64,000 bases of DNA from Betaproteobacteria bacterium (GTDB lineage: Bacteria; Pseudomonadota; Gammaproteobacteria; Burkholderiales; SG8-39), in NCBI GenBank assembly GCA_009693235.1, contig SHXR01000010.1, positions 1 through 64,000 of the forward strand, given 5' to 3'. Both the position numbers and the translations under genes were made by a program. Positions 48,051-64,000 of this stretch are shown in pieces; positions within the stretch are counted from its first letter, which is position 1; each line of letters begins with the position of its first letter. The notes below the pieces were generated by a model that saw nothing but the letters and a program-made list of their open reading frames with translations, had not been told where the DNA came from and ran no database searches.

Positions 48051-49208
48051 CTAATAGCTGCGCGGCAAGCCCAGCCGCTCACTGATGAAATTCATGACCA
48101 TTTCATTGGATATTGGGCTGAATGGCCCCAATCTGCAATCACGAAATAACCGTTCGAGCGGCGATTCCTCAACCAGCCCGTAGCCGGCCAGCACCCGCAT
48201 GCATCGATCGGTCGCTCGGATCGCCGTTTCGGTCGCTGCCAATTTTGCCATCGCTGCTTCTGTCGTGCATTCTCGCTTATTACTTTGGAGCCATGCAGCT
48301 TTTGCGGTGAGAAGGCGAATTTGTTCAAGCTCGGTCGCGCTTTCAGCCAGTGGATGCTGCACCGCTTGAAACGCGCCGATTGAGCGGCCAAACGCTTGCC
48401 GGTCCATCGCATATTGCAGCGTCTGATCGAGCGCGGCACTGGTGATCCCGACGTACATGGCGGCACAGAGAATCCGCTCTTCGTCGAGGCTCGCGAGAAG
48501 ATGATACCAGCCGCGTCCCCGCTGGCCGACCACCGCATCGGCGGGCGCCTTCGCTTGGTCGAAGAAGACTTCACAGGTGCAGGCAGCGCGCATCCCCATC
48601 AATTCCAGTCGGCGGACCGCTACGGCAGGCTGTTGTCGGGGCGTGAGGACGAGCGATAGACCACGTGCGCGCTTGGTGCCTTCGGCCGGTTCGGTGCGGC
48701 ATAACACCAGGATTGCATCGGCATCGTCGGCGAAGGAGGTGAACAATTTCTGCCCGCTGATGGTCCAACCGTCGGCTTCCAGCGTCGCCCGGGTCGTTAA
48801 TCCCAGCACATCGGTGCCGCCGGCCGGTTCGGTCATGCCAAAGGACATCAGCCATTCGCCCGCCGCCAACTTTGGCAACAGGGTTTCCTTTTGTGCCTGG
48901 GTACCCGCTTCGCGGAGGATGCGCGCGGTCATCGAAATCAGCAGCCAGTCGGTCGCCATGGACGGGAACTGGCGCGACAGCTCCTCGACGAATACTGCTG
49001 CGAGCATTACATCAGCGCCGCTGCCGCCGTATTCCACTGGTACCGACAGACCCGCCCAGCCGAGTTCACCCATCCGTTTCCAGAGCGCGCGCGGAATCTT
49101 GCGGGCGCGATCCATCTCGCGGATCTTGCGCTCAGGCAACTCGCGCGCGAAAAACTGCCGCACGCTATCGCGCAGCATTTGATGTTCCGGAATCGGGTCG
49201 AAATTCAT
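48051..49208 (-). CDS. Acyl-CoA dehydrogenase
   Basis: FAD-dependent acyl-CoA dehydrogenase of 385 residues. It has WAGLSVPVEYGGSGADVML, the substrate/FAD block SFGMTEPAGGTDVLGLTTR, the beta domain DGWTISGQKLFTSF and the C-terminal YGLVEESPLERLFRDCRLGP, ending ISERLGLPRSY. Its start lies 12 bp after livG, so it is the last gene of the tonB-exbBD-livHMG run. By position it probably acts on the imported compound once it has been activated to a CoA ester. Confidence 0.93.
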   Translation of the reverse strand: MNFDPIPEHQMLRDSVRQFFARELPERKIREMDRARKIPRALWKRMGELGWAGLSVPVEYGGSGADVMLAAVFVEELSRQFPSMATDWLLISMTARILREAGTQAQKETLLPKLAAGEWLMSFGMTEPAGGTDVLGLTTRATLEADGWTISGQKLFTSFADDADAILVLCRTEPAEGTKRARGLSLVLTPRQQPAVAVRRLELMGMRAACTCEVFFDQAKAPADAVVGQRGRGWYHLLASLDEERILCAAMYVGITSAALDQTLQYAMDRQAFGRSIGAFQAVQHPLAESATELEQIRLLTAKAAWLQSNKRECTTEAAMAKLAATETAIRATDRCMRVLAGYGLVEESPLERLFRDCRLGPFSPISNEMVMNFISERLGLPRSY

Positions 49209-49220
49209 AATCGATCTGCC

Positions 49221-49988
49221 TCATTCAACCGGTGCAACTGCTTCGCCCAAATACACCTGCTGCACCGCGGGCATGGCGCGTACCGCTGCGGGTATCCCTT
49301 CGGCCAATACTGCGCCTTGATGCAAGACGGTGATCACGGTTGCGACCGCGAAGACCACGGCCATGTCATGTTCGGTGAAGATTACGGTGAGACCCAGTTC
49401 CCGGGCAAGGCTCCCCACCAGGTGAATGGATGCCAACCTTTCCTGCGCGGCCATCCCGGCGGTGGGTTCATCAAGCAGGAGAAGCCGCGGCTGACCGGCC
49501 AATGCGATCGCCAATTCCAGGCGCTTCTGGTCGCCATGCGAAAGCGTGCCGGCGATGCGGGTGCCGGTATCAGTGAGGCCGACTAGCGCCAGCAACTCGC
49601 GCACACGCGGCATGTTCATCGTACGCGCCTTGGGCCAGATGCTCCATGAGCGCCGCTCGCGGCCTGTGAGCGCAACTTGCAGGTTTTCCCGCACCGTCAA
49701 CTCACGAAAGATGCTCGTAATCTGAAAGGTACGACCAATGCCGATGCGGGCCAAGGCGTGGGGCGGCTGTCCGGTGATGCGCTCGCCCTGAAAAAAAACA
49801 TTTCCCGAGGTGGGTGGGAACAGCCCGGTGATGGTATTGAAGAAAGTGCTCTTGCCGGCGCCATTGGGGCCGATGACCGCGCGGAGTTCGCCGGGCGCAA
49901 CCGACATCGTCACGTTGGCCAGCGCCTGCACGCCGCCAAATTGCTTGCTGAGTCCATCGACGTGAAACAGGGCGTCAGCGTTTGCCAT
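49221..49988 (-). CDS. livG: Branched-chain-type ABC transporter ATP-binding protein LivG
   Basis: ATPase of a HAAT/Liv importer, 255 residues. Walker A GPNGAGKSTFF, signature LSHGDQKRLELAIALA and Walker B LLLLDEPTAGMA are present, with the LivG-type FFNTITGLFPPTSG segment. The start overlaps the end of livM. The second ATPase (livF) and the binding protein are encoded divergently 5 kb away. Confidence 0.94.
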   Translation of the reverse strand: MANADALFHVDGLSKQFGGVQALANVTMSVAPGELRAVIGPNGAGKSTFFNTITGLFPPTSGNVFFQGERITGQPPHALARIGIGRTFQITSIFRELTVRENLQVALTGRERRSWSIWPKARTMNMPRVRELLALVGLTDTGTRIAGTLSHGDQKRLELAIALAGQPRLLLLDEPTAGMAAQERLASIHLVGSLARELGLTVIFTEHDMAVVFAVATVITVLHQGAVLAEGIPAAVRAMPAVQQVYLGEAVAPVE

Positions 49989-50889
49989 CGCGAATTCTTC
50001 TCGTCATTCCCATGATGCCTTCTGGCATCATGAGCACCAACACCACGATGATCACGCCCATAATCAATGGCCAGTATTCAGTATGCCCGCTGATAACGAC
50101 TTCCAGCATCACATAGACCGCTGCGCCCACCATCGGACCGATAAAAGTGCGGAATCCCCCCAACACTGCCATCACGATCGGCGTCGCACTCGCTGTCCAG
50201 TTGAGCCAACCGGGAAAGACGTTACCGCTGGAAATCGCGAAGATCGCACCGGCCAGCCCGGCAATGGTCCCGGCCAGCACGAACGTCGCGAGCTGATGGG
50301 TCCGCACATTGATACCGACATACTCGACCCGCCTTGGATTGCCACGCAGCGCTTGCAGCGTCATGCCAAAGGGCGAGTGGACGATGCGGTGCATCAGCGC
50401 CAGCGCGACGATCACGATGATGAGCGCGAACCAATAGTAGTAGATCGGCTTGCTCAACGCGCCCGCGGCTTTCAAGCCGGTGATGCCGTCATCGCCGCCG
50501 GTGAGTCCGGTCGCCTTCAACGCGACGGTGTAGAGCAGCATCTGAAAGGCGAACGTCAGCATCGCGAAATAGATGCCGATCCGACGCACCGAAAAAAATC
50601 CGATGATGGCAGCGGTGATCGCCGACATCGCGAGCGCTGCCGGGAACGCAACGGCGAGCGGCAGGCCCCCATGCTTGACCAGAATGGCCACCGTGTAACC
50701 GCCCACCCCAAAGAATGCGGCGTGACCGAAGGACAGCATGCCGCCGTAGCCTAACAGCAGATTGAAGCTCACCGCATAGAGTGCAAAGACCAGCACTTCG
50801 ATCGCGATGAAGGTCCAGAAATCGGTCAAGCCAAGCGGCAAGGCGATCGCAGCGAGGATGGCGATGGCAAGAAGCGACGGCCGGTTCAT
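49975..50889 (-). CDS. livM: Branched-chain-type ABC transporter permease LivM
   Basis: Membrane permease of about 304 residues with eight or nine helices; the family block YAVSFNLLLGYGGMLSFGHAAFFG (given in part) and ALRGNPRRVEYVGINVRTHQL identify LivM. I use the ATG at 50889, 26 bp after the livH stop; a TTG at 50931 would add 14 polar residues and overlap livH. Neither has a strong ribosome site. Confidence 0.92.
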   Translation of the reverse strand: MNRPSLLAIAILAAIALPLGLTDFWTFIAIEVLVFALYAVSFNLLLGYGGMLSFGHAAFFGVGGYTVAILVKHGGLPLAVAFPAALAMSAITAAIIGFFSVRRIGIYFAMLTFAFQMLLYTVALKATGLTGGDDGITGLKAAGALSKPIYYYWFALIIVIVALALMHRIVHSPFGMTLQALRGNPRRVEYVGINVRTHQLATFVLAGTIAGLAGAIFAISSGNVFPGWLNWTASATPIVMAVLGGFRTFIGPMVGAAVYVMLEVVISGHTEYWPLIMGVIIVVLVLMMPEGIMGMTRRIRDGKR

Positions 50890-50914
50890 ATTGGCTTGGT
50901 CAATGGGGGGGTAG

Positions 50915-51838
50915 TTATTCCGGTGTGCCAAAGAGGCCCCATGGCCGCACGATCAATATGAAAGCCATCAAGGCAAACGTGAGCACGACCGCTGCCGAAG
51001 GAAATGCCAGGACGCCGAACGCATTCACGATCCCAACCAGGAGTGAAGCAACGAGCGCACCGCCAACGCTTGCCATGCCGCCGATGACCACGACGACGAA
51101 GGCGTCGATGATCACCTGCACATGCAATCCTGGGCCGACCGCGACGATCGGTGCTGCCAGGGCGCCGCCTAGTCCTGCCAATGCCGCGCCAAGAGCGAAT
51201 ACGCCGGTAAACAACGCCTTGGTATTGGTACCGAGTGCGCCCAGCATGTGGCGGTCCATGGTCGCGGCGCGCACGAGGATGCCCCAGCGTGTGCGATGCA
51301 GCACCCACCACAGTGCGATGGCGACCAACACGCCGAAGACGATAAGGAACATGCGATAGGTAGGAAACGTAACGCCGAACGCTTCGGTGCTGCCAGTCAG
51401 CAGACCCGGCACAGCAACCGCATGGTCTTCGCGGCCCCAGATGAGCTTGACCAGATCACCGACGATGAACACCAGGGCAAAAGTGAGCAGCAACTGAAAT
51501 TCATGCGCTGCTTGGTAGAGCGGGCGGAGCAATGCCATCTCCACCGCGGCGCCGAACGCAAAGAGTCCAACCGCACCGGCGATCAATGCGAGCACGAACC
51601 AGAGGCCACTTTCCGGGCCGAAGCCTGCGATAGTCAGTGCGAAATAAGCACCCAGCATGAACAGCACGCCATGGGCGAAGTTGACGATGCGGGAAACACC
51701 GAAGATCAAGGAGAGGCCGGCCGAAATCAAGAAAAGCAGCATGCCATTGGAAATGCCGGCCAACATTTGGCGCGCGACCACGACCGGGTTTTGTATCCAG
51801 CCGAAATGTTCGGTGAAGAATAGACCGATGGTTTCCAC
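50915..51838 (-). CDS. livH: Branched-chain-type ABC transporter permease LivH
   Basis: Permease of 307 residues with about eight helices. SAGLSLIFGVSRIVNFAHGV (given in part) and RAATMDRHMLGALGTNTKALF are typical of LivH. It starts 39 bp after exbD on the same strand, so transcription from tonB-exbBD probably continues into the transporter. Confidence 0.92.
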   Translation of the reverse strand: METIGLFFTEHFGWIQNPVVVARQMLAGISNGMLLFLISAGLSLIFGVSRIVNFAHGVLFMLGAYFALTIAGFGPESGLWFVLALIAGAVGLFAFGAAVEMALLRPLYQAAHEFQLLLTFALVFIVGDLVKLIWGREDHAVAVPGLLTGSTEAFGVTFPTYRMFLIVFGVLVAIALWWVLHRTRWGILVRAATMDRHMLGALGTNTKALFTGVFALGAALAGLGGALAAPIVAVGPGLHVQVIIDAFVVVVIGGMASVGGALVASLLVGIVNAFGVLAFPSAAVVLTFALMAFILIVRPWGLFGTPE

Positions 51839-52299: not shown

Positions 52300-53040
52300 T
52301 CAGCCTCTTTCCGGCTTGGCACGGATTTGCGCACCACGGATGGTCGTTTCAGCCACGGTACTTGCGCGATGCCCGATCAACATGAAGGCAAACACCTCGT
52401 GGGCGAAGCTGTCGAGTTCGGCGAACACCAGGCGGTTGGAGCGCACCAATGCGTTGTAGCCAAGTACCGCCGGGATCGCCACGGCAAGACCACCTGCCGT
52501 CATGATCAAGGCTTCCCCAACCGGACCGGCAACCTTGTCGAGCGTGCCTTGGCCGCTCACGCCAATGGCAAGGAGCGCGTGATAGATCCCCCACACGGTG
52601 CCGAACAGGCCAACGAAGGGCGCGGCGGAACCCACTGAGGCGAGCACTGTCAATCCGGATTCGAGTCGCGCAGTGGTTTGATCAATCGCACGCTTGAGTG
52701 CGCGGGTGAGGAAATCATCGGGCGAGCCCGATTCGATGAGCCGTGCGCCACTCGCGCGATTGAGATGAGCAACCGCTGCGAACCCTTGTTGCATGAGCGA
52801 GGAGAACGGATCGCGCGCACCATGTGCACTGATGTGCGTCCGGACGGCATCGAGATCGGGCGCCTCCCAAAAGAAGCGGAGAAACGCATCGGATTGCCGG
52901 CGTCGCGTAAAGCTCTGATAGCCTTTGGTGAGGATGTAATACCAACTCGATAGCGACATGACGAACAGGACCACGAGGACGATCCAGCCGACCAGATCCG
53001 CCTGTGCGAGAAAATTGGCAATACCGCGGGAAGTATCCAT
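52300..53040 (-). CDS. exbB: ExbB/TolQ family proton channel protein
   Basis: 246-residue inner-membrane protein with three helices: one at residues 15-38, then after a cytoplasmic stretch two more in the MotA/TolQ domain (LTVLASVGSAAPFVGLFGTVWG and ALIMTAGGLAVAIPAVLGYN, given in part). With ExbD it uses the proton gradient to energise TonB. It sits 8 bp after tonB and 2 bp before exbD. Confidence 0.93.
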   Translation of the reverse strand: MDTSRGIANFLAQADLVGWIVLVVLFVMSLSSWYYILTKGYQSFTRRRQSDAFLRFFWEAPDLDAVRTHISAHGARDPFSSLMQQGFAAVAHLNRASGARLIESGSPDDFLTRALKRAIDQTTARLESGLTVLASVGSAAPFVGLFGTVWGIYHALLAIGVSGQGTLDKVAGPVGEALIMTAGGLAVAIPAVLGYNALVRSNRLVFAELDSFAHEVFAFMLIGHRASTVAETTIRGAQIRAKPERG

Positions 53041-53048
53041 AGCTATAA

Positions 53049-53801
53049 CTAATCCAGTTTGAAGACGACCGGTACCAATACCGAAGCGGCTATTGGTTTT
53101 TCACCTTGGCGGGCCGGTACAAATTTCCAGCGCTTGACGGTTTCAATCGCCACGTTGTCAAGCCGCGGGTAGCCGGATGTTGTTTCCAGCTCGACGCGAC
53201 TGGGGAGTCCATTTGGATCGACGAACACGCGCACCAATACTTTGCCCTGTTCACCGAAGCGCCGCGAAACCGAAGGATACGCCGGCGACGGATTGGATAA
53301 GTAAGCCGCATTGAAACCGGGAGCAGTGATGGGCACCGGTGGCGGCGCGGGCGCTAACAATGGCGAAGGCGGGGGCGGCACGGGCGGTGTAGGCGGCGCC
53401 GCCTCCACTGCCTTGGTGGGTTTTGCTTCGATGGGTGCCGGTGGCTCAGGCGGTGGTGCGGGTGCTTCGATGCGCGGCGGCGGTGCGCTTGGCGTGGGAG
53501 CCGTTGCCAAAATAGGCGGCGTGGGCGTGGGCGGCGGTGGGGGCGGAATCGTTTCGGTCGGTGGCGGGGGTGGCACCGGATTGTTCGTTTGCTTGGGCGG
53601 CTCGACCGCGAGCGGCTTCGGTACCTCCGGTACGATCATCCGGACAAACATCGGTGCAGCATCGGCAAGCATTTGTCGTGTTGGCTGATAGGAAAGAAGC
53701 AGGGCACCGGCGAGAACGTGAAGAAACCCCACCACCGCAATGACGGCGGGCGATAAACGCTCCTTCTCGAGCGCGTGAGGAAGGCGATGCATGGTAGCCA
53801 C
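53049..53801 (-). CDS. tonB: TonB energy transducer
   Basis: 250 residues: a short cytoplasmic N-terminus, one helix (VIAVVGFLHVLAGALLLSY), a long proline-rich periplasmic rod with PPPPP runs (residues about 70-170), and the TonB C-terminal domain with SNPSPAYPSVSRRFGEQGKVLVRVFVD (given in part) and RWKFVPARQGEKPI. First gene of the minus-strand run leading through exbBD to livHMG. No TonB-dependent receptor gene is in the window, and no clear Fur box is seen upstream. Confidence 0.94.
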   Translation of the reverse strand: MATMHRLPHALEKERLSPAVIAVVGFLHVLAGALLLSYQPTRQMLADAAPMFVRMIVPEVPKPLAVEPPKQTNNPVPPPPPTETIPPPPPPTPTPPILATAPTPSAPPPRIEAPAPPPEPPAPIEAKPTKAVEAAPPTPPVPPPPSPLLAPAPPPVPITAPGFNAAYLSNPSPAYPSVSRRFGEQGKVLVRVFVDPNGLPSRVELETTSGYPRLDNVAIETVKRWKFVPARQGEKPIAASVLVPVVFKLD

Positions 53802-53958
53802 AATGCAATGATAGCGCCCGGACCCGGCTCATTTCGTCTTCGCATGCCGGATAACCGTACTACACTACATGGAATGTGTTGTTTTCCACGCACGCAGCGT
53901 CAATCGCGAGCCATGCGCGGTACCTGCGAACCGATGCGATCTTGAAAAGGAGTCCGCC

Positions 53959-55188
53959 ATGTTGAACGTGATTCGTACCATCTTGATAGCCGGCACGGCC
54001 ATGCTATTTGCAGCGGGCGGCCCGGTCGTCGCGCAACAAAAAGGTGCTCCGATCAAGCTTGGCTTGATCGACATCTACAGCGGCGGGTTTGCCTTTATCG
54101 CCGATACCATCCGCACCGGCTTTCAGATCGCCATCGACGAAGCCAATGCCGCCGGAGGCTTGAATGGCCGCCAATTCCAATTGGTCACGGCCGACATGGG
54201 CCCCAGCGTTGAAAAGGCGGTCACCGAAGGCCGGCGCATGATTCTCGAGGAGAAAATCAAATTCGTCACGGTCGGCATCCATAGCGGCGCAGCGGTGGCA
54301 GTGGGCAATCTTGGCAAAGAGCATAAGGCGCTCATCGTCGGCGGCTTTGCCACCACCAAGCGTCTCACTGCCGAAGCCGGTCATCCCTACGTCGCGCGCG
54401 CGAATCTGTCGACGGTGGAAATCGGACGTGTGATGGCCGAACGTCTGAAGACCATGCCTGATATCAAGCGGGTGTCGCTGATCTCGCCTGACTATGAATA
54501 TGGCCAGCATTTCGCGGCTGATTTTGTGACGGCGATCAAAGTCACCCGACCCGATATCATCATCGTTCGCCAGGAATGGCCGAAGCTAGGCGCCGCTGAC
54601 TTCGGTGCACACGTTACCGCCTTGCAGGCGCAACCCACCGACATGATCGTGGCCGGTGTATTTGGCGCCGACCTCGTCAATTTTCTGAAAGCAGGCCGTG
54701 ACTTTGGTTTGTTGAAAGGCAAGATGCAGCTCTTCATCCATGGCGCCGATCTCGCGAAGCTCGGGGCGATGAAGGATTCCCTGCCGGAAGGCACGCTGAC
54801 GACGGTGTGGTATCCGTTCTACGCGATCGACAATCCGCGCTCCAAAGCGTTTGCCGCGGAAGTGGAAAAGCGGATGAAGACCTACGCGACCGGACCGGCA
54901 CCGGTCGGCTATACCGCGGGCCGCATGATCATCGAAGCGATCAAGAAAGCGGGCAGCGATGATGTCGATAAGGTCCGCGACCAATTGGGTAACGTGCAGT
55001 TCGAAGGCCCCACCGGCCTCATCAAGGTCCGTGGTTGCGACAACACCGCGCTCTACAACTTTTACGTCGGCAACATCAAACGCGACGCAAAATTCCCAGA
55101 TGGCATCGGCGTCGAGAACGTCAAGACCTTCAATACCGAAAGCGTGGTGCGCTCCTGCGTCGAGATCCTGCGGGTGCGAGGCGGCTAG
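53959..55188 (+). CDS. Branched-chain-type ABC transporter substrate-binding protein
   Basis: Periplasmic binding protein of 409 residues with a signal peptide (TILIAGTAMLFAAGGPVVAQ). The mature region begins KLGLIDIYSGGFAFIADTI and follows the Leu/Ile/Val-binding fold (FQIAIDEANAAGGLNGR; SLISPDYEYGQ). AAAAGGAG precedes the ATG at 53959. Such proteins in betaproteobacteria often bind aromatic or short-chain organic acids rather than amino acids. Divergent from tonB; livF is 21 bp downstream. Confidence 0.92.
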   Translation: MLNVIRTILIAGTAMLFAAGGPVVAQQKGAPIKLGLIDIYSGGFAFIADTIRTGFQIAIDEANAAGGLNGRQFQLVTADMGPSVEKAVTEGRRMILEEKIKFVTVGIHSGAAVAVGNLGKEHKALIVGGFATTKRLTAEAGHPYVARANLSTVEIGRVMAERLKTMPDIKRVSLISPDYEYGQHFAADFVTAIKVTRPDIIIVRQEWPKLGAADFGAHVTALQAQPTDMIVAGVFGADLVNFLKAGRDFGLLKGKMQLFIHGADLAKLGAMKDSLPEGTLTTVWYPFYAIDNPRSKAFAAEVEKRMKTYATGPAPVGYTAGRMIIEAIKKAGSDDVDKVRDQLGNVQFEGPTGLIKVRGCDNTALYNFYVGNIKRDAKFPDGIGVENVKTFNTESVVRSCVEILRVRGG

Positions 55189-55209
55189 GTCCAAGCTTCA
55201 TCGCTTGAC

Positions 55210-55923
55210 GTGCCGCTCCTCGACATCCGCAATCTCGCGACCGCCTATGGCGCGAGTCAAGTGCTGTTTGGCATCTCCCTCAGCGTTGAAGCGGGTGAGG
55301 TGGTTGCATTGCTTGGGCGTAATGGTGCCGGTAAGACCACCACTTTATCGAGCGTGATGGGGCTGGTACCGCCTCGGAGCGGCAGTATTCAATTTCAAGG
55401 CAAGGAGATGTTCGGCGCCGAGCCTTTTGAGGCCTGCAGGCTGGGGCTTGGATTCGTGGCCGAGGATTGTCGTTTGTTCACCGGCCTTTCCGTCGCCGAG
55501 AATTTCGAAGCGGCGCGTATGGCGCCACGGAATGGCGCCGTACGATTGCCTTGGGATGTCCGGCGTATCGTTGGACTATTTCCCGATGTACGCACCTTCC
55601 TCGAGCGGCGCGCCGGAGCGCTGTCAGGCGGGCAGCAACGGATGGTTGCGATCGCGCGCACGCTGATGGGGAATCCTGATCTATTGCTGCTCGATGAGCC
55701 GTCGGAAGGCCTTGCGCCGCTCGTCGTCGAGGCGCTGTTGAAATGCTTGAAGACGCTGAAGGCGTCCGGGGCGACCGTGCTCATCTCGGAGCAGAACCTG
55801 CGCTTCGCGATGGAACTTGCCGATCGCGTGTACATCATCGAGAAGGGCGAAATTCGCTATCACGGCACACCGGCGGAACTCGCCGCGCGGCCGGAGATCA
55901 GGCAGCAATATTTAATGGTCTGA
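55210..55923 (+). CDS. livF: Branched-chain-type ABC transporter ATP-binding protein LivF
   Basis: Second ATPase of the Liv-type importer, 237 residues, starting with GTG at 55210. GRNGAGKTTTLSSVMGL, the LSGGQQRMVAIARTLM signature and LLLLDEPSEGLAPL are intact; the last is the typical LivF motif. It completes the transporter with livHMG on the other strand. The acyl-CoA synthetase gene begins 13 bp downstream. Confidence 0.94.
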   Translation: MPLLDIRNLATAYGASQVLFGISLSVEAGEVVALLGRNGAGKTTTLSSVMGLVPPRSGSIQFQGKEMFGAEPFEACRLGLGFVAEDCRLFTGLSVAENFEAARMAPRNGAVRLPWDVRRIVGLFPDVRTFLERRAGALSGGQQRMVAIARTLMGNPDLLLLDEPSEGLAPLVVEALLKCLKTLKASGATVLISEQNLRFAMELADRVYIIEKGEIRYHGTPAELAARPEIRQQYLMV

Positions 55924-55936
55924 AGGGTTATTGCAT

Positions 55937-57481
55937 ATGAATTTGGCAGCAACGCTGACACAGGCCGCGGCGAAGTGGCCGAACAAAGAGGGCCTCGTCT
56001 TCGAAGGCCGGCGCTGGACCTTTGCGCAATGGAACCGTGCGGCGAACAAGGCGGCCCATGCGTTTGCCGCCCATGGCGTGAAGAAGGGCGATCGGGTTGC
56101 GATTCTCACCTGGAATCTGCCGGAACAGGTCATCGCTTTCTATGGGTTGATGAAGATCGGCGCGGTGCCGGTGCCGATCAACTACCGACTTGCCGCGAAC
56201 GAAATAAAATACATCGTCGATGACAGTGGTGCGCGCCTACTGATGTTTGAGGAGGTGTTGCGGGACAAAGTGGCGCCAATTGCGGGGAAGCTCGCTGTGG
56301 AGGCCTTGCTCTATGTGGGGGATCGCCCACAGGGTCGTGAGATGCCGTTCGACCGTTTCATCGCCCTGGGCGCGGAGACGGAGCCCGCGGCCGATGTTGG
56401 TTACGATGACGCGGCGTTTATTATGTACACATCGGGAACCACCGGCAAACCGAAGGGCGTGGTCCGCACCCATCTGCAGGAGTTGATGGGAAGCATGATC
56501 ATGGCGCTCGAATGCGGGTTTCGGCATGACGATGTGATTCTCAACAACAAGCCGCTTTTTCATATTGCGCAATTGCAGCTGCAATTCCTGCCGTTCGTGC
56601 AGATCGGCGGCAAGAATGTGCTGACCCGCGGTTTCGATGTGCATGAGACCTTGTCGTTGGTCGGCGCAGAAAAAATCACTTGCCTGCACGGCGTGCCGAC
56701 GCAGATGGTGATGATGGTGCAAGCGGATTTGTCGCAATACGATCTACGGTCGCTGCGTTGTGGGTTCTTTGGCGGCCAGACCCTCGCCGATGATGTCACC
56801 AGGAAATGCATGGCTCTCTTCCCCGATTACTTCGGCAACGTTTATGGCTCCACCGAAGCCTTGGCGGTGACAACCTGCGATTACCGCAAGTATCCGAATA
56901 AACTCGGCAGCGTAGGCAAGGCCGCCATCAATATGGATGTGCGGATCGTCAATGCCGATTCCGGCGATCCGAATACGATCTGCAAACCGGGCGAGATCGG
57001 GCAACTCATTGCGCGTGGCCCGAGTCTCTTGAAGGAGTACTTTCGCCTACCGGAGCGTACGGCGGCAGCCTTTCGTGAAGGTTGGTTCTACTCAGGCGAT
57101 GCGGCGTTCACCGATGACGAAGGCTTTATCACCGTCATGGGCCGCATGGATCACACCATCAAAAGTGGCGGCGAGAACATTCATCCATCGGAGGTGGAGA
57201 ACGTCTTATTCGAGCACCCCGGTATTGCCAACGCCGCAGCTGTGGGTCTGCCAAGCAAGCGCTGGGGCCAAGTGGTGGTCGCAGCGATCATCAAGAAGGA
57301 TCCAAACCTGGATGCGGCGACGCTCGACCAATTCTGTCGTGATAGCCCGAACCTGGCGGACTTCAAACGGCCGCGGCACTATTTCTTCGTCGATGAGATT
57401 CCTTCGAACCCGACCGGCAAAGTGGAGCGCGGAAAATTGAAAGATCGGCTGATGGTGATGATGAAGGAGCCGCTGGAGTAA
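55937..57481 (+). CDS. AMP-forming acyl-CoA synthetase
   Basis: 514-residue acid-CoA ligase. P-loop YTSGTTGKPKGVVRTH, the GSTEALAVT adenine-binding motif, YSGDAAFTDDEGFITVMGR and the catalytic Lys in PSNPTGKVERGKL are visible and uninterrupted. The ATG at 55937 is used; a TTG at 55931 is in frame but lacks support. Its place directly behind livF suggests that it activates the imported acid. Confidence 0.93.
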   Translation: MNLAATLTQAAAKWPNKEGLVFEGRRWTFAQWNRAANKAAHAFAAHGVKKGDRVAILTWNLPEQVIAFYGLMKIGAVPVPINYRLAANEIKYIVDDSGARLLMFEEVLRDKVAPIAGKLAVEALLYVGDRPQGREMPFDRFIALGAETEPAADVGYDDAAFIMYTSGTTGKPKGVVRTHLQELMGSMIMALECGFRHDDVILNNKPLFHIAQLQLQFLPFVQIGGKNVLTRGFDVHETLSLVGAEKITCLHGVPTQMVMMVQADLSQYDLRSLRCGFFGGQTLADDVTRKCMALFPDYFGNVYGSTEALAVTTCDYRKYPNKLGSVGKAAINMDVRIVNADSGDPNTICKPGEIGQLIARGPSLLKEYFRLPERTAAAFREGWFYSGDAAFTDDEGFITVMGRMDHTIKSGGENIHPSEVENVLFEHPGIANAAAVGLPSKRWGQVVVAAIIKKDPNLDAATLDQFCRDSPNLADFKRPRHYFFVDEIPSNPTGKVERGKLKDRLMVMMKEPLE

Positions 57482-61954: not shown

Positions 61955-62380
61955 TCAATGCGGCAACCGCACCTCGGCTGTTGCCTCCGCCACCACGCGA
62001 TCACCATTCATCAAACGCTGTGCGACGCTCACAATATCGAAATCGCCATTGACGCGGATGCCGGTCACTTCGCCAACGGCCACCAGATGATCGCCCGCGA
62101 AGGCCATCGACTTGTATTTGAGAGCGAGTCTGCGAATGAATGCCTGTGAACCCGCCCAATCGATGATCGCCTTGGCGAACACCGCGCCGTATTCCTGCCC
62201 GTCGATAACAACATTAGGCAGTTTGACCGATCGCGCGTAGTCGAGGTCATAGTGCAGGCGATGCCAGTCCCAGGTCGCAGCACCATAGGCGACGAGATCG
62301 ACGGTCGTAAAGGTGCGCTCTTGCATGGGGAGCGACTCACCAACCTTCAATGTCGACGCGGACAAGGTGGGCGCGCTCAT
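61955..62380 (-). CDS. MaoC-like acyl dehydratase (C-terminal type)
   Basis: 141-residue hotdog-fold protein. The hydratase motif appears as TWDWHRLHYDLDYA, giving the Asp-His pair of MaoC enzymes, followed by NVVIDGQEYGAVFAKAI. Its ATG overlaps the stop of the FAS1-like gene (ATGA), so the two are made together; paired hotdog proteins of this kind form one hydratase. Probably acts on the CoA thioesters generated by neighbouring genes. Confidence 0.9.
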   Translation of the reverse strand: MSAPTLSASTLKVGESLPMQERTFTTVDLVAYGAATWDWHRLHYDLDYARSVKLPNVVIDGQEYGAVFAKAIIDWAGSQAFIRRLALKYKSMAFAGDHLVAVGEVTGIRVNGDFDIVSVAQRLMNGDRVVAEATAEVRLPH

Positions 62381-62886
62381 GCGTTTTCTCCCGCGGGCTG
62401 CAGGGGCTGATAGACGAGCGTCTCGCGATTGATTGCCAACAGCTCATTGCCGTCCGCCGTAAATCGGGCCACCGATTGCACGAATAGTTGCGTGCCACCG
62501 CGCGATGACGCTCGCTCCTCGATATTTTCGAGTGTCCACGCGGCGGAAATACGATCGGTGGGCAGGATCGGGCGAGTGAATTCGTAATCATTGCCCGCGC
62601 GGATCTGGCGACAGCCTTCGATCGGCAGATGCCACTCGTGTCCGAAATAGCCATCGACATTCGCCGGCCGGTGCGCGTATTGGCAGGTTTCCACGACCAG
62701 CGTCGGCGGTGCGATCACCGATGGATAACCCGCTTGGCGTGCGTAACCGTCATCAGAGTAAAGCGGGTTGTAGTCACGTAGGGCGAGCGCAAAATAGCGA
62801 ATCGAGGCGCGGCTTAATTCTTCGCAGGCAGGATAGGTAATGGTGCGGCCGATCCAGGCTTTGAGTTCGTCGGTGAGAAGAGACAT
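62377..62886 (-). CDS. FAS1-like dehydratase (MaoC N-terminal type)
   Basis: 169-residue hotdog-fold partner of the MaoC-like protein. It opens MSLLTDELKAWIGRTITYPA, with the dehydratase region IRYFALALRDYNPLYSDDGYAR (given in part) and VIAPPTLVVETCQY. The ATG at 62886 is where homology starts; the frame is open upstream to 62979, inside the RidA gene. Together the two probably hydrate an enoyl-CoA. Follows the RidA gene after about 30 bp. Confidence 0.9.
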   Translation of the reverse strand: MSLLTDELKAWIGRTITYPACEELSRASIRYFALALRDYNPLYSDDGYARQAGYPSVIAPPTLVVETCQYAHRPANVDGYFGHEWHLPIEGCRQIRAGNDYEFTRPILPTDRISAAWTLENIEERASSRGGTQLFVQSVARFTADGNELLAINRETLVYQPLQPAGENA

Positions 62887-62915: not shown

Positions 62916-64000
62916 TTATTCGAGGATCGCGAATGGATCCACTTCGATCAGCATTTCCGGCCTGAGAAGCGCTTCGCAAACGAGCCCGGTCGAGGCCGGG
63001 TAGGGCTCCTTCATCAATTTCGTGCGCACGCTCGCCACGTCGCGGTATTGCGTGAGTGCATTGGGCGTCACATATTCAATGGTCTTGACGAGATTGCTTA
63101 CGGTGCCGCCCGCCGCCTCGATCACTTTGATCACGTTGTGGTAAGTGTACTCGGCTTGCGCAATCACATCGCCTTCATGCACGACGCGTTCGGTTGCCGG
63201 GTCGAGCGCGCCTTGCCCCGAAAGAAACAAGAGCTTCCCCGCTTTGACGCCCGGGCTGTACGTGAGTTTCTGGTAGCGATCCCAGCCGGGGTTGATGGCG
63301 ACGGGCTTGTCTCGTGTGGCGATGAAATCGTATTGAATCAATGCGTCGCGATGGCATAGCTTCGGCATTAGGATGCCGGCTGCGCCCGGATACACCGGCC
63401 CGAGAAATTCGCGTCGCACCCGCCCGGTAAACTTGTATTCGGCAAGGGCCGCCGGGGTGAGGTAGTCGACCGTCTTCACCACACGATCGAAGCCCAGTCC
63501 TAACGCGCCCAACATCCGCTTAGCCTTCTCGAAGATCGCACGAGTCTGGGCGACCACGTCACCCGCGCCGATGATGTTTCCTTCCGCATCGGTCGGTAGC
63601 ACGGTTGGAAGAAACACCACCCCCGTCGAATCGCGCGCCACCGGCATGCCAGAGCCCATGTTTGTCGCCGGGCCCACTGGTCCAGCGGTCACTTCGATCT
63701 CAATGAATGCCTCCGGCCGCAGTAAGGCGCGCACCGGCACGGTGTTGATCGCGGGTTGATGCGTGCCGAACACTTCTTCGCGCACCGCTTTGGCCTCGGC
63801 GTAACGCTCGATGCCTTCCGGCTTCACATATTCGACAACGCGAACCACATCGTCCATTGTCATACCCGCAGCATCGAGGATGGTTGCGATTTTTTGGTAG
63901 GCGGTGCGGACCTGTTCGGTCATGCCGCCTTTGACGACGATGCGCTTTAACGCCGGATCGAATTCAGACGCCGTATGTCCGGAGAGATAGACGCGTTCGC
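62916..64000 (-). CDS. Multi-domain RidA (YjgF/UK114) family protein, 5' end outside window
   Basis: The frame is open to the right edge and continues beyond it; the visible part has 361 residues. Three RidA folds follow each other: RVYLSGHTASEF to LLRPEAFIEIEVTA; VVFLPTVLPTDAEGNI to MPKLCHRDALIQYDF; and LLFLSGQGALDPATERV to ALLRPEMLIEVDPF. RidA proteins hydrolyse reactive enamine/imine intermediates using an Arg near the end of each fold. Here that position looks conserved in folds one and three (LLRPE) but is replaced in the second (MPKLCHRD). Upstream of the FAS1-like/MaoC pair and probably cotranscribed. Confidence 0.88.
   Translation of the reverse strand, partial: ERVYLSGHTASEFDPALKRIVVKGGMTEQVRTAYQKIATILDAAGMTMDDVVRVVEYVKPEGIERYAEAKAVREEVFGTHQPAINTVPVRALLRPEAFIEIEVTAGPVGPATNMGSGMPVARDSTGVVFLPTVLPTDAEGNIIGAGDVVAQTRAIFEKAKRMLGALGLGFDRVVKTVDYLTPAALAEYKFTGRVRREFLGPVYPGAAGILMPKLCHRDALIQYDFIATRDKPVAINPGWDRYQKLTYSPGVKAGKLLFLSGQGALDPATERVVHEGDVIAQAEYTYHNVIKVIEAAGGTVSNLVKTIEYVTPNALTQYRDVASVRTKLMKEPYPASTGLVCEALLRPEMLIEVDPFAILE

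Follow-up and report, generated by a model that had tools for sequence, protein, structure and literature searches.

Enzymes of the Rid fold have enamine, imine or enol-ether carbons as their targets. Proteins carrying three tandem RidA domains were named 3x-RidA in 2015 by Niehaus et al. and are supposed to be covalent trimers, EF_0115 being an example (PMC4433059). In the excerpts of the literature cited here, the arginine of RidA and of Rid1 to Rid3 is described as essential for imine hydrolysis (PMC4433059), its loss nearly abolishing activity (PMC4433059, PMC4960622); about 10% of RidA proteins have a serine at this position, and Rid4 to Rid7, which miss the arginine, are stated to have unknown functions (PMC4433059). 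A second reference point is provided by the heteromeric MaoC enzymes HadB/HadA and ChsH1/ChsH2, where one subunit is inert and, according to the cited excerpt, the inert partner binds the large acyl group (PMC11321319). A three-domain RidA protein, which the initial annotation of the present locus contrasted with the usual single-domain trimers, is thus not new in itself, since the 3x-RidA class had already been named (PMC4433059).

The gene studied here, hereafter 3x-Rid, lies on the minus strand at the end of the window, the whole stretch of 64,000 nucleotides of contig SHXR01000010.1 that was analysed. Its open reading frame, from 62916, is still open at the window end. The contig extends to 78323 and supplied the 5' end that the initial annotation had wished to see: the full gene covers 62916-64082, starts with GTG at 64082 and encodes 388 amino acids, so that the window (62916..64000) holds all of it but the last 82 nt at the 5' end (contig 64001-64082). 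In 8 of the 17 named relatives described below, the frame likewise has its first start codon at the residue that corresponds to this GTG. The Pfam model PF01042 matches the protein in three separate stretches (whole-protein E 5.8e-46), and a search of the bacterium's own genome places stretches of this type at 62925-63263, 63450-63623 and 63684-64025. The earlier statement that at least three RidA folds are fused therefore stands as regards the fusion, the count being exactly three rather than a minimum.

The three domains, all on the minus strand, differ in their sites. Rid domain 1 (63678..64000 and on to contig position 64082; residues about 1-135) keeps Glu128, the loop residue Arg122 and the pair Ser34-Gly35, and has Ile112 at the position of the conserved catalytic Arg105 of TdcF. 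Rid domain 2 (63309..63677; residues about 136-258) has a shortened N-terminal strand region and Leu-Pro in place of the Ser-Gly pair, with Ala234 aligned to Arg105 and Gln250 to Glu120. Rid domain 3 (62919..63308; residues 259-388) keeps Glu380, Arg374 and Ser-Gly and has Ser364 where Arg105 would stand. ALLRPE is found in both outer domains and domain 2 has KLCHRDALIQYD instead, in agreement with the initial observation that an LLRPE-type segment is missing from the middle domain only. That this segment is the usual one in RidA proteins is contradicted by the solved relative PH0854, which has VSRLPKDVLIEIE at this site, and by several single-domain and tandem sequences. Among the sequences listed, the L-x-R form is found in domains 1 and 3 and in 7/7 of the nearest single-domain relatives, and is absent from four other single-domain sequences, from the nine domains of the other tandem proteins of this genome (C94 and C91 types, see below) and from the divergent domain sL064.

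Site residues were compared in 20 homologues: the window gene, 17 named loci from a scan of a genome collection, and two further loci, L068 (genome G301) and L096 (genome G784). The 17 loci, 53-93% identical to the window protein in their best segment, were found with two domain 1 patterns, P[TKA][HR]FPWFD and SGHTASEF, a search that homologues without these motifs escape; L054 and L065, being duplicates of L070 and L080, were removed before counting, the L083 sequence starts 31 residues late, and a gene remnant in G358 (L100) was left out. When the arginine sites of each fold were aligned, as the initial annotation had proposed, the imine-hydrolase arginine was missing from 3/3 domains in 20/20 sequences: its position is occupied by valine (16), isoleucine (3) or leucine (1) in domain 1, by alanine (16), serine (2), glycine (1) or a gap (1) in domain 2, and by serine (17) or alanine (3) in domain 3. 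The Glu120 position reads Glu in all 20 domain 1 sequences, Gln in all 20 of domain 2, and Glu in 18 of domain 3, where it is Asp in L085 and lost in L068 (Ala). The Ser-Gly pair is present in domain 1 of all 20, a count partly forced by a search pattern taken from that domain; domain 2 has Leu-Pro (19) or Leu-Ala (1) and domain 3 Ser-Gly (18), Ala-Gly (1) or Ser-Ala (1). The loop arginine (LLR) is likewise present in 20/20 domain 1 sequences and in 18 of domain 3 (Lys and Asn once each), whereas domain 2 mostly has proline (15). Several of these exceptions come from L068, whose domain 2 has 88 letters against 111-128 elsewhere. The positions aligned with the Arabidopsis inter-subunit pair K136-E182 (PMC4960622, in the excerpt cited) read RE in 19 sequences and GE in one, KD in 19 and RQ in one, and KD in all 20, so the likely salt-bridge residues of the trimer are kept. 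As a pattern, the alignment suggests a trimer that is held together with unequal sites, domain 1 being constant, domain 2 uniformly changed and domain 3 mostly kept. The claim of altered sites was hence borne out by the missing arginine and the Glu/Gln/Glu asymmetry, but not in its coupling to the fusion, since the arginine is also gone from the outer domains and from the seven nearest single-domain relatives listed.

Two MaoC genes follow 3x-Rid on the same strand, as expected from the split MaoC-type hydratase noticed initially. MaoC-A (62377..62886, minus strand) encodes a HadA-like protein of 169 aa with the motif DYNPLY and no catalytic His; translation probably begins at the ATG at 62886, which opens the aligned and conserved MSLLTDEL, and not at the TTG at 62979 chosen by the ORF caller. 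MaoC-B (61955..62380, minus strand) overlaps it by 4 nt and encodes a HadB-like protein of 141 aa whose motif WDWHRLH contains the Asp and the His. This Asp/His dyad is present in MaoC-B and absent from MaoC-A in 19/19 alignment rows (L096 left out); the motif pattern itself counted 18/19 because L083 reads GGATWDWHRLH. The order Rid, MaoC-A, MaoC-B on one strand is found at 19/19 loci and also at L096, that is at 20/20, and the linkage holds down to 31% identity (L068). The gap between Rid and MaoC-A ranges from -4 to 29 nt at 18 loci and reaches 554 nt at L085 (Bradyrhizobium mercantei). There, the stretch L085:11132-11681 between Rid and MaoC contains what is left of a second Rid domain 3 and, apparently, of a MaoC-A start, and an IS110-type transposase lies in the vicinity. 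Conversely, MaoC-A (E up to 1e-12) occurs in 4 of the 399 genomes of the order, three of which have 3x-Rid; in the fourth (G358, L100), an in-frame remnant of Rid domain 3 adjoins MaoC-A. We consider the architecture of 3x-Rid and its linkage to MaoC as solid, and the constant pair of neighbours supports the dedicated pathway that the initial annotation had preferred over general imine clearance. Among the matches listed from open-licence papers, none described a Rid-MaoC module.

The fold was predicted with AlphaFold2 for an orthologue that is 93% identical to the window protein, within an alignment of 18. The model (pLDDT 91.6, pTM 0.91), which the initial annotation had suggested making, repeats the Rid strand-helix pattern three times, so that on the model the whole chain would consist of three Rid folds. 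The same annotation had tied its interpretation to the middle segment folding as RidA: modelled alone from the window sequence, domain 2 (pLDDT 81.6) does so, matching RutC with Z 16.0 over 113 residues (rmsd 2.5), and domain 3 matches RutC with Z 20.3. With the three PF01042 stretches, the protein thus shows the three tandem domains of 3x-RidA. The closest solved fold for the whole chain is the chorismatase 4bps (Z 26.8, 286 residues, rmsd 2.9, 17% identity), and ranks 1-6 of the Foldseek list are chains of the chorismatase entries 5a3k and 5ag3. The suggestion of a built-in pseudo-trimer gains support from the quality of the model and from a best whole-chain match in the PDB that is itself a single-chain protein; we infer that the 3x-Rid chain closes into one trimer.

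Orthologues of 3x-Rid are rare. Among the 399 genomes of the order, 11 give a match at E up to 1e-18, comprising the full-length form in two (the genome studied here and G170), a divergent 325-aa form in G301 and eight one-domain matches; among the 369 genomes of the class, G784 is the one match besides our own at E up to 1e-22. The taxon titles of the 17 named loci are Burkholderiales, Comamonadaceae, Polaromonas, Alpha-, Beta- and Gammaproteobacteria, Bradyrhizobium mercantei, one Deltaproteobacteria MAG, two uncultured bacteria and, for a MAG contig (L070), Klebsiella pneumoniae; this last label is probably wrong, as the contig belongs to the genus of the genome studied here. The form in G301 (L068:8913-9890) has a shortened middle domain and lacks the Glu of domain 3, and MaoC-A and MaoC-B still follow it. 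The initial annotation had also called for a survey of fused RidA proteins; besides the known 3x-RidA class, there are four 3x genes in the genome studied here. By alignment, the arginine is kept in all three domains of C94 (L015:9682-10929), in one of the three of C91a (L016:6902-8176), and in none of C91b (L016:12208-13536; three domains by alignment, two stretches by Pfam) or of the window gene. The three other genes adjoin importer genes, of the Liv type or of the NMT1 type with an M20 peptidase. A 410-aa 3x-Rid protein of 24% identity is encoded on a plasmid of Sinorhizobium sp. BG8 (L095:8923-10155), where the gene table has no entry; the surrounding 19 kb give no MaoC-A or MaoC-B match, and this protein is of another type.

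In a tree of the domains, based on a short alignment with 17 rows per domain, a branch separates each domain position from all other sequences (100/100, 100/100 and 100/98), and the window-type domains cluster with single-domain relatives without the arginine (99/94), apart from the C94 and C91 domains. L083, L068 and L096 are not in this tree under their orthologue names, domain 3 of L068 having been entered as sL064. This grouping suggests that the arginine was probably lost before the tripling, which probably happened more than once, and separate origins of the window-type and the C94/C91-type proteins are favoured. A single fusion origin of all 3x-Rid proteins is disfavoured by the tree, yet one clade of all 3x domains is not rejected by the AU test (p 0.085); the three window-type domains as a clade of their own are neither found in the tree nor rejected (p 0.403). 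A heterotrimer encoded by three separate genes in relatives was also considered and is rejected for the loci sampled: seven single-domain loci (L048-L053 and L055) hold one Rid ORF each, and a search of them at E up to 1e-6 detects neither a MaoC-A nor a MaoC-B homologue; L066, L067 and L069 give one Rid match each and no MaoC match.

Farther from the gene, the window contains an acyl-CoA dehydrogenase gene (48051..49208, minus strand), genes of a branched-chain-type importer (LivG, LivM and LivH type, 49221..51838, minus strand), two further genes of that importer, for its LivK-type binding protein and its LivF-type ATPase (53869..55923, plus strand), and an acyl-CoA ligase gene (55931..57481, plus strand). 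Between this group (48-57 kb) and Rid lie genes for a luciferase-like oxidoreductase, an FMN-dependent dehydrogenase and an amidase. Orthologues of the dehydrogenase stand beside 3x-Rid at 9 of the 17 named loci, those of the ligase at 8, a tandem alpha/beta hydrolase at 7 and a LivM orthologue at 6; these counts are lower bounds because of contig ends, and CoA-thioester genes are thus near 3x-Rid at about half of the named loci. LivH and LivK, near neighbours in relatives, are separated in the window by an ExbB/TolQ-type and a TonB gene (52300-53801). The two-domain hydrolase (L071:6303-8060; also L072, L073 and L080) lies in the operon of relatives and has the nucleophile elbows GRHTG and GHLGG or GHNGG, with the usual Ser missing; in our genome, which is 79% complete, it has no close homologue, the best being 29-32% identical over part of its length. 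Elsewhere the neighbours differ: those of L082 and L083 include a Rieske oxygenase and an isochorismatase-type hydrolase, those of L084 a PEP-mutase-like gene, and those of L085 an ABC importer of another kind as well as a phosphotriesterase-like gene. Only the three-gene core is therefore constant. NCBIfam cut-offs were reached by none of the two CoA ligases of the window contig, the acyl-CoA dehydrogenase and LivK (matches with E up to 1e-30), and for this reason we leave the pathway unnamed; the single protein in this comparison to exceed its cut-off was thiolase-like (L081:4453-5619), with 656.2 bits against 462 for a subfamily model.

Taken as a whole, 3x-Rid probably performs a dedicated step in the breakdown of a compound, and its neighbours point to a dedicated enzyme of CoA-thioester catabolism. 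Our working proposal, tentative and held at slightly less than even chances, is that a single-chain asymmetric pseudo-trimer forms a conserved module with a heterodimeric MaoC and acts in a beta-oxidation-like pathway. An imported acid would be converted into its CoA thioester and oxidised by the acyl-CoA dehydrogenase, MaoC would add water to the product, and the Rid pseudo-trimer would protonate or hydrolyse an enamine- or enol-type acyl-CoA intermediate. The module would comprise this pseudo-trimer, a HadA-like non-catalytic and a HadB-like catalytic MaoC subunit. Since MaoC-B has the dyad and MaoC-A lacks it, as in HadAB and ChsH1-ChsH2, the module may be a hydratase for bulky enoyl-CoA with a dedicated Rid-fold partner. 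One or two of the three inter-domain clefts would be catalytic, the Glu128 site of domain 1 being the constant one, and the classical arginine could be dispensable because the substrate carboxylate would be masked as a CoA thioester. Against this proposal count the variable wider neighbourhood, the changed domain 3 Glu in L068 and L085, the unnamed pathway, and the serine already known at the arginine position in about 10% of RidA proteins in the survey excerpt (PMC4433059). A more specific version, which we regard as possible though rather doubtful, makes 3x-Rid an additional catalytic lineage within the Rid fold, in which one cleft (Glu128 and the relocated loop Arg122) handles an acyl-CoA enamine or enol passed to or from the dedicated MaoC heterodimer; the other pseudo-sites would decay as in chorismatase, and the tandem form would have been reached separately from the C94/C91 type.

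The main rival is a purely structural role, in which the pseudo-trimer would serve the MaoC heterodimer as a subunit for structure or substrate handling, with no chemistry of its own. It would accord with the strict linkage to the MaoC genes, with the absence of the classical arginine from every domain, with the MaoC pair of L068, kept despite the short domain 2 and the lost domain 3 Glu, and with the inert partner domains that are usual in heteromeric MaoC enzymes in the excerpt cited (PMC11321319). Glu128 and the loop Arg122, however, are kept in 20/20 sequences, which is hard to explain without a working cleft, and we consider this role unlikely, while giving it real weight.

Far less probable is a relative of FkbO/Hyg5 that would act on chorismate or a similar enol ether. 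The whole-chain fold matches speak for it, as does the chorismatase model TIGR04444, which at E up to 1 matches 11 of 18 members (best 9.5e-7). Entries of the 5a3k, 5ag3 and 4bps type presumably use Hyg5 numbering. On that basis, the end coordinates (model residue 386 = chain residue 340, with an ungapped end assumed) would place Glu380 at 334, the number of the glutamate, Glu-334, that is essential in Hyg5 in the excerpt cited (PMC7170507). The first member nevertheless scores 17.4 bits against a TIGR04444 cut-off of 325, the glutamate kept throughout is that of domain 1 and not of domain 3, the neighbours are CoA-thioester genes, and a sequence-profile search of the PDB (56 sequences at E up to 10) retrieved no chorismatase although chorismatases top both fold lists. 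Least probable of all is an ordinary 3x-RidA that clears 2-aminoacrylate-type imines: TIGR00004 ('Rid family detoxifying hydrolase', cut-off 106.25 bits) is passed by the window fragment (121.4) and by L070 (128.2), but these scores are sums over three stretches, the arginine essential in the excerpts cited (PMC4433059, PMC4960622) is missing from every domain of all 20 sequences, no PLP enzyme was found among the neighbouring genes scanned, and the genome has other Rid genes, including C94 with the arginine in all its domains. Caution is thus needed where TIGR00004 labels such an Arg-less 3x-Rid a detoxifying hydrolase. As the 2015 survey stated the functions of Rid4 to Rid7 to be unknown (PMC4433059, excerpt), a gene-context clue is of value, and here an Arg-less Rid protein has the sharp and testable context of its MaoC pair at 20/20 loci; its built-in asymmetry, moreover, shows which sites of a trimer selection keeps.

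Compared with the described systems, each domain of 3x-Rid has the fold of single-domain RidA and RutC; these are separate chains that form trimers, whereas 3x-Rid is fused, asymmetric and devoid of the RidA arginine. The FkbO/Hyg5 chorismatases (4bps, 5a3k and 5ag3) are the closest solved whole-chain fold and are single-chain Rid-like pseudo-trimers as well, but share 15-17% identity with 3x-Rid, which stays far under the TIGR04444 cut-off and has its constant Glu in domain 1. HadAB and ChsH1-ChsH2 resemble the MaoC pair in having the dyad in one subunit only; the pair described here stays below the NCBIfam HadA and HadB cut-offs of 180 and 203 bits, with scores of 44.9 and 33.2, and is tied to the 3x-Rid gene. 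The nearest system is 3x-RidA, which like the window protein joins three tandem RidA domains in one chain and, in the survey excerpt, is supposed to be a covalent trimer (PMC4433059). The window protein differs by having the arginine in no domain, by its unequal sites and by its link to MaoC, EF_0115 being compared by architecture alone; it is a real, conserved and gene-linked variant of this known architecture.
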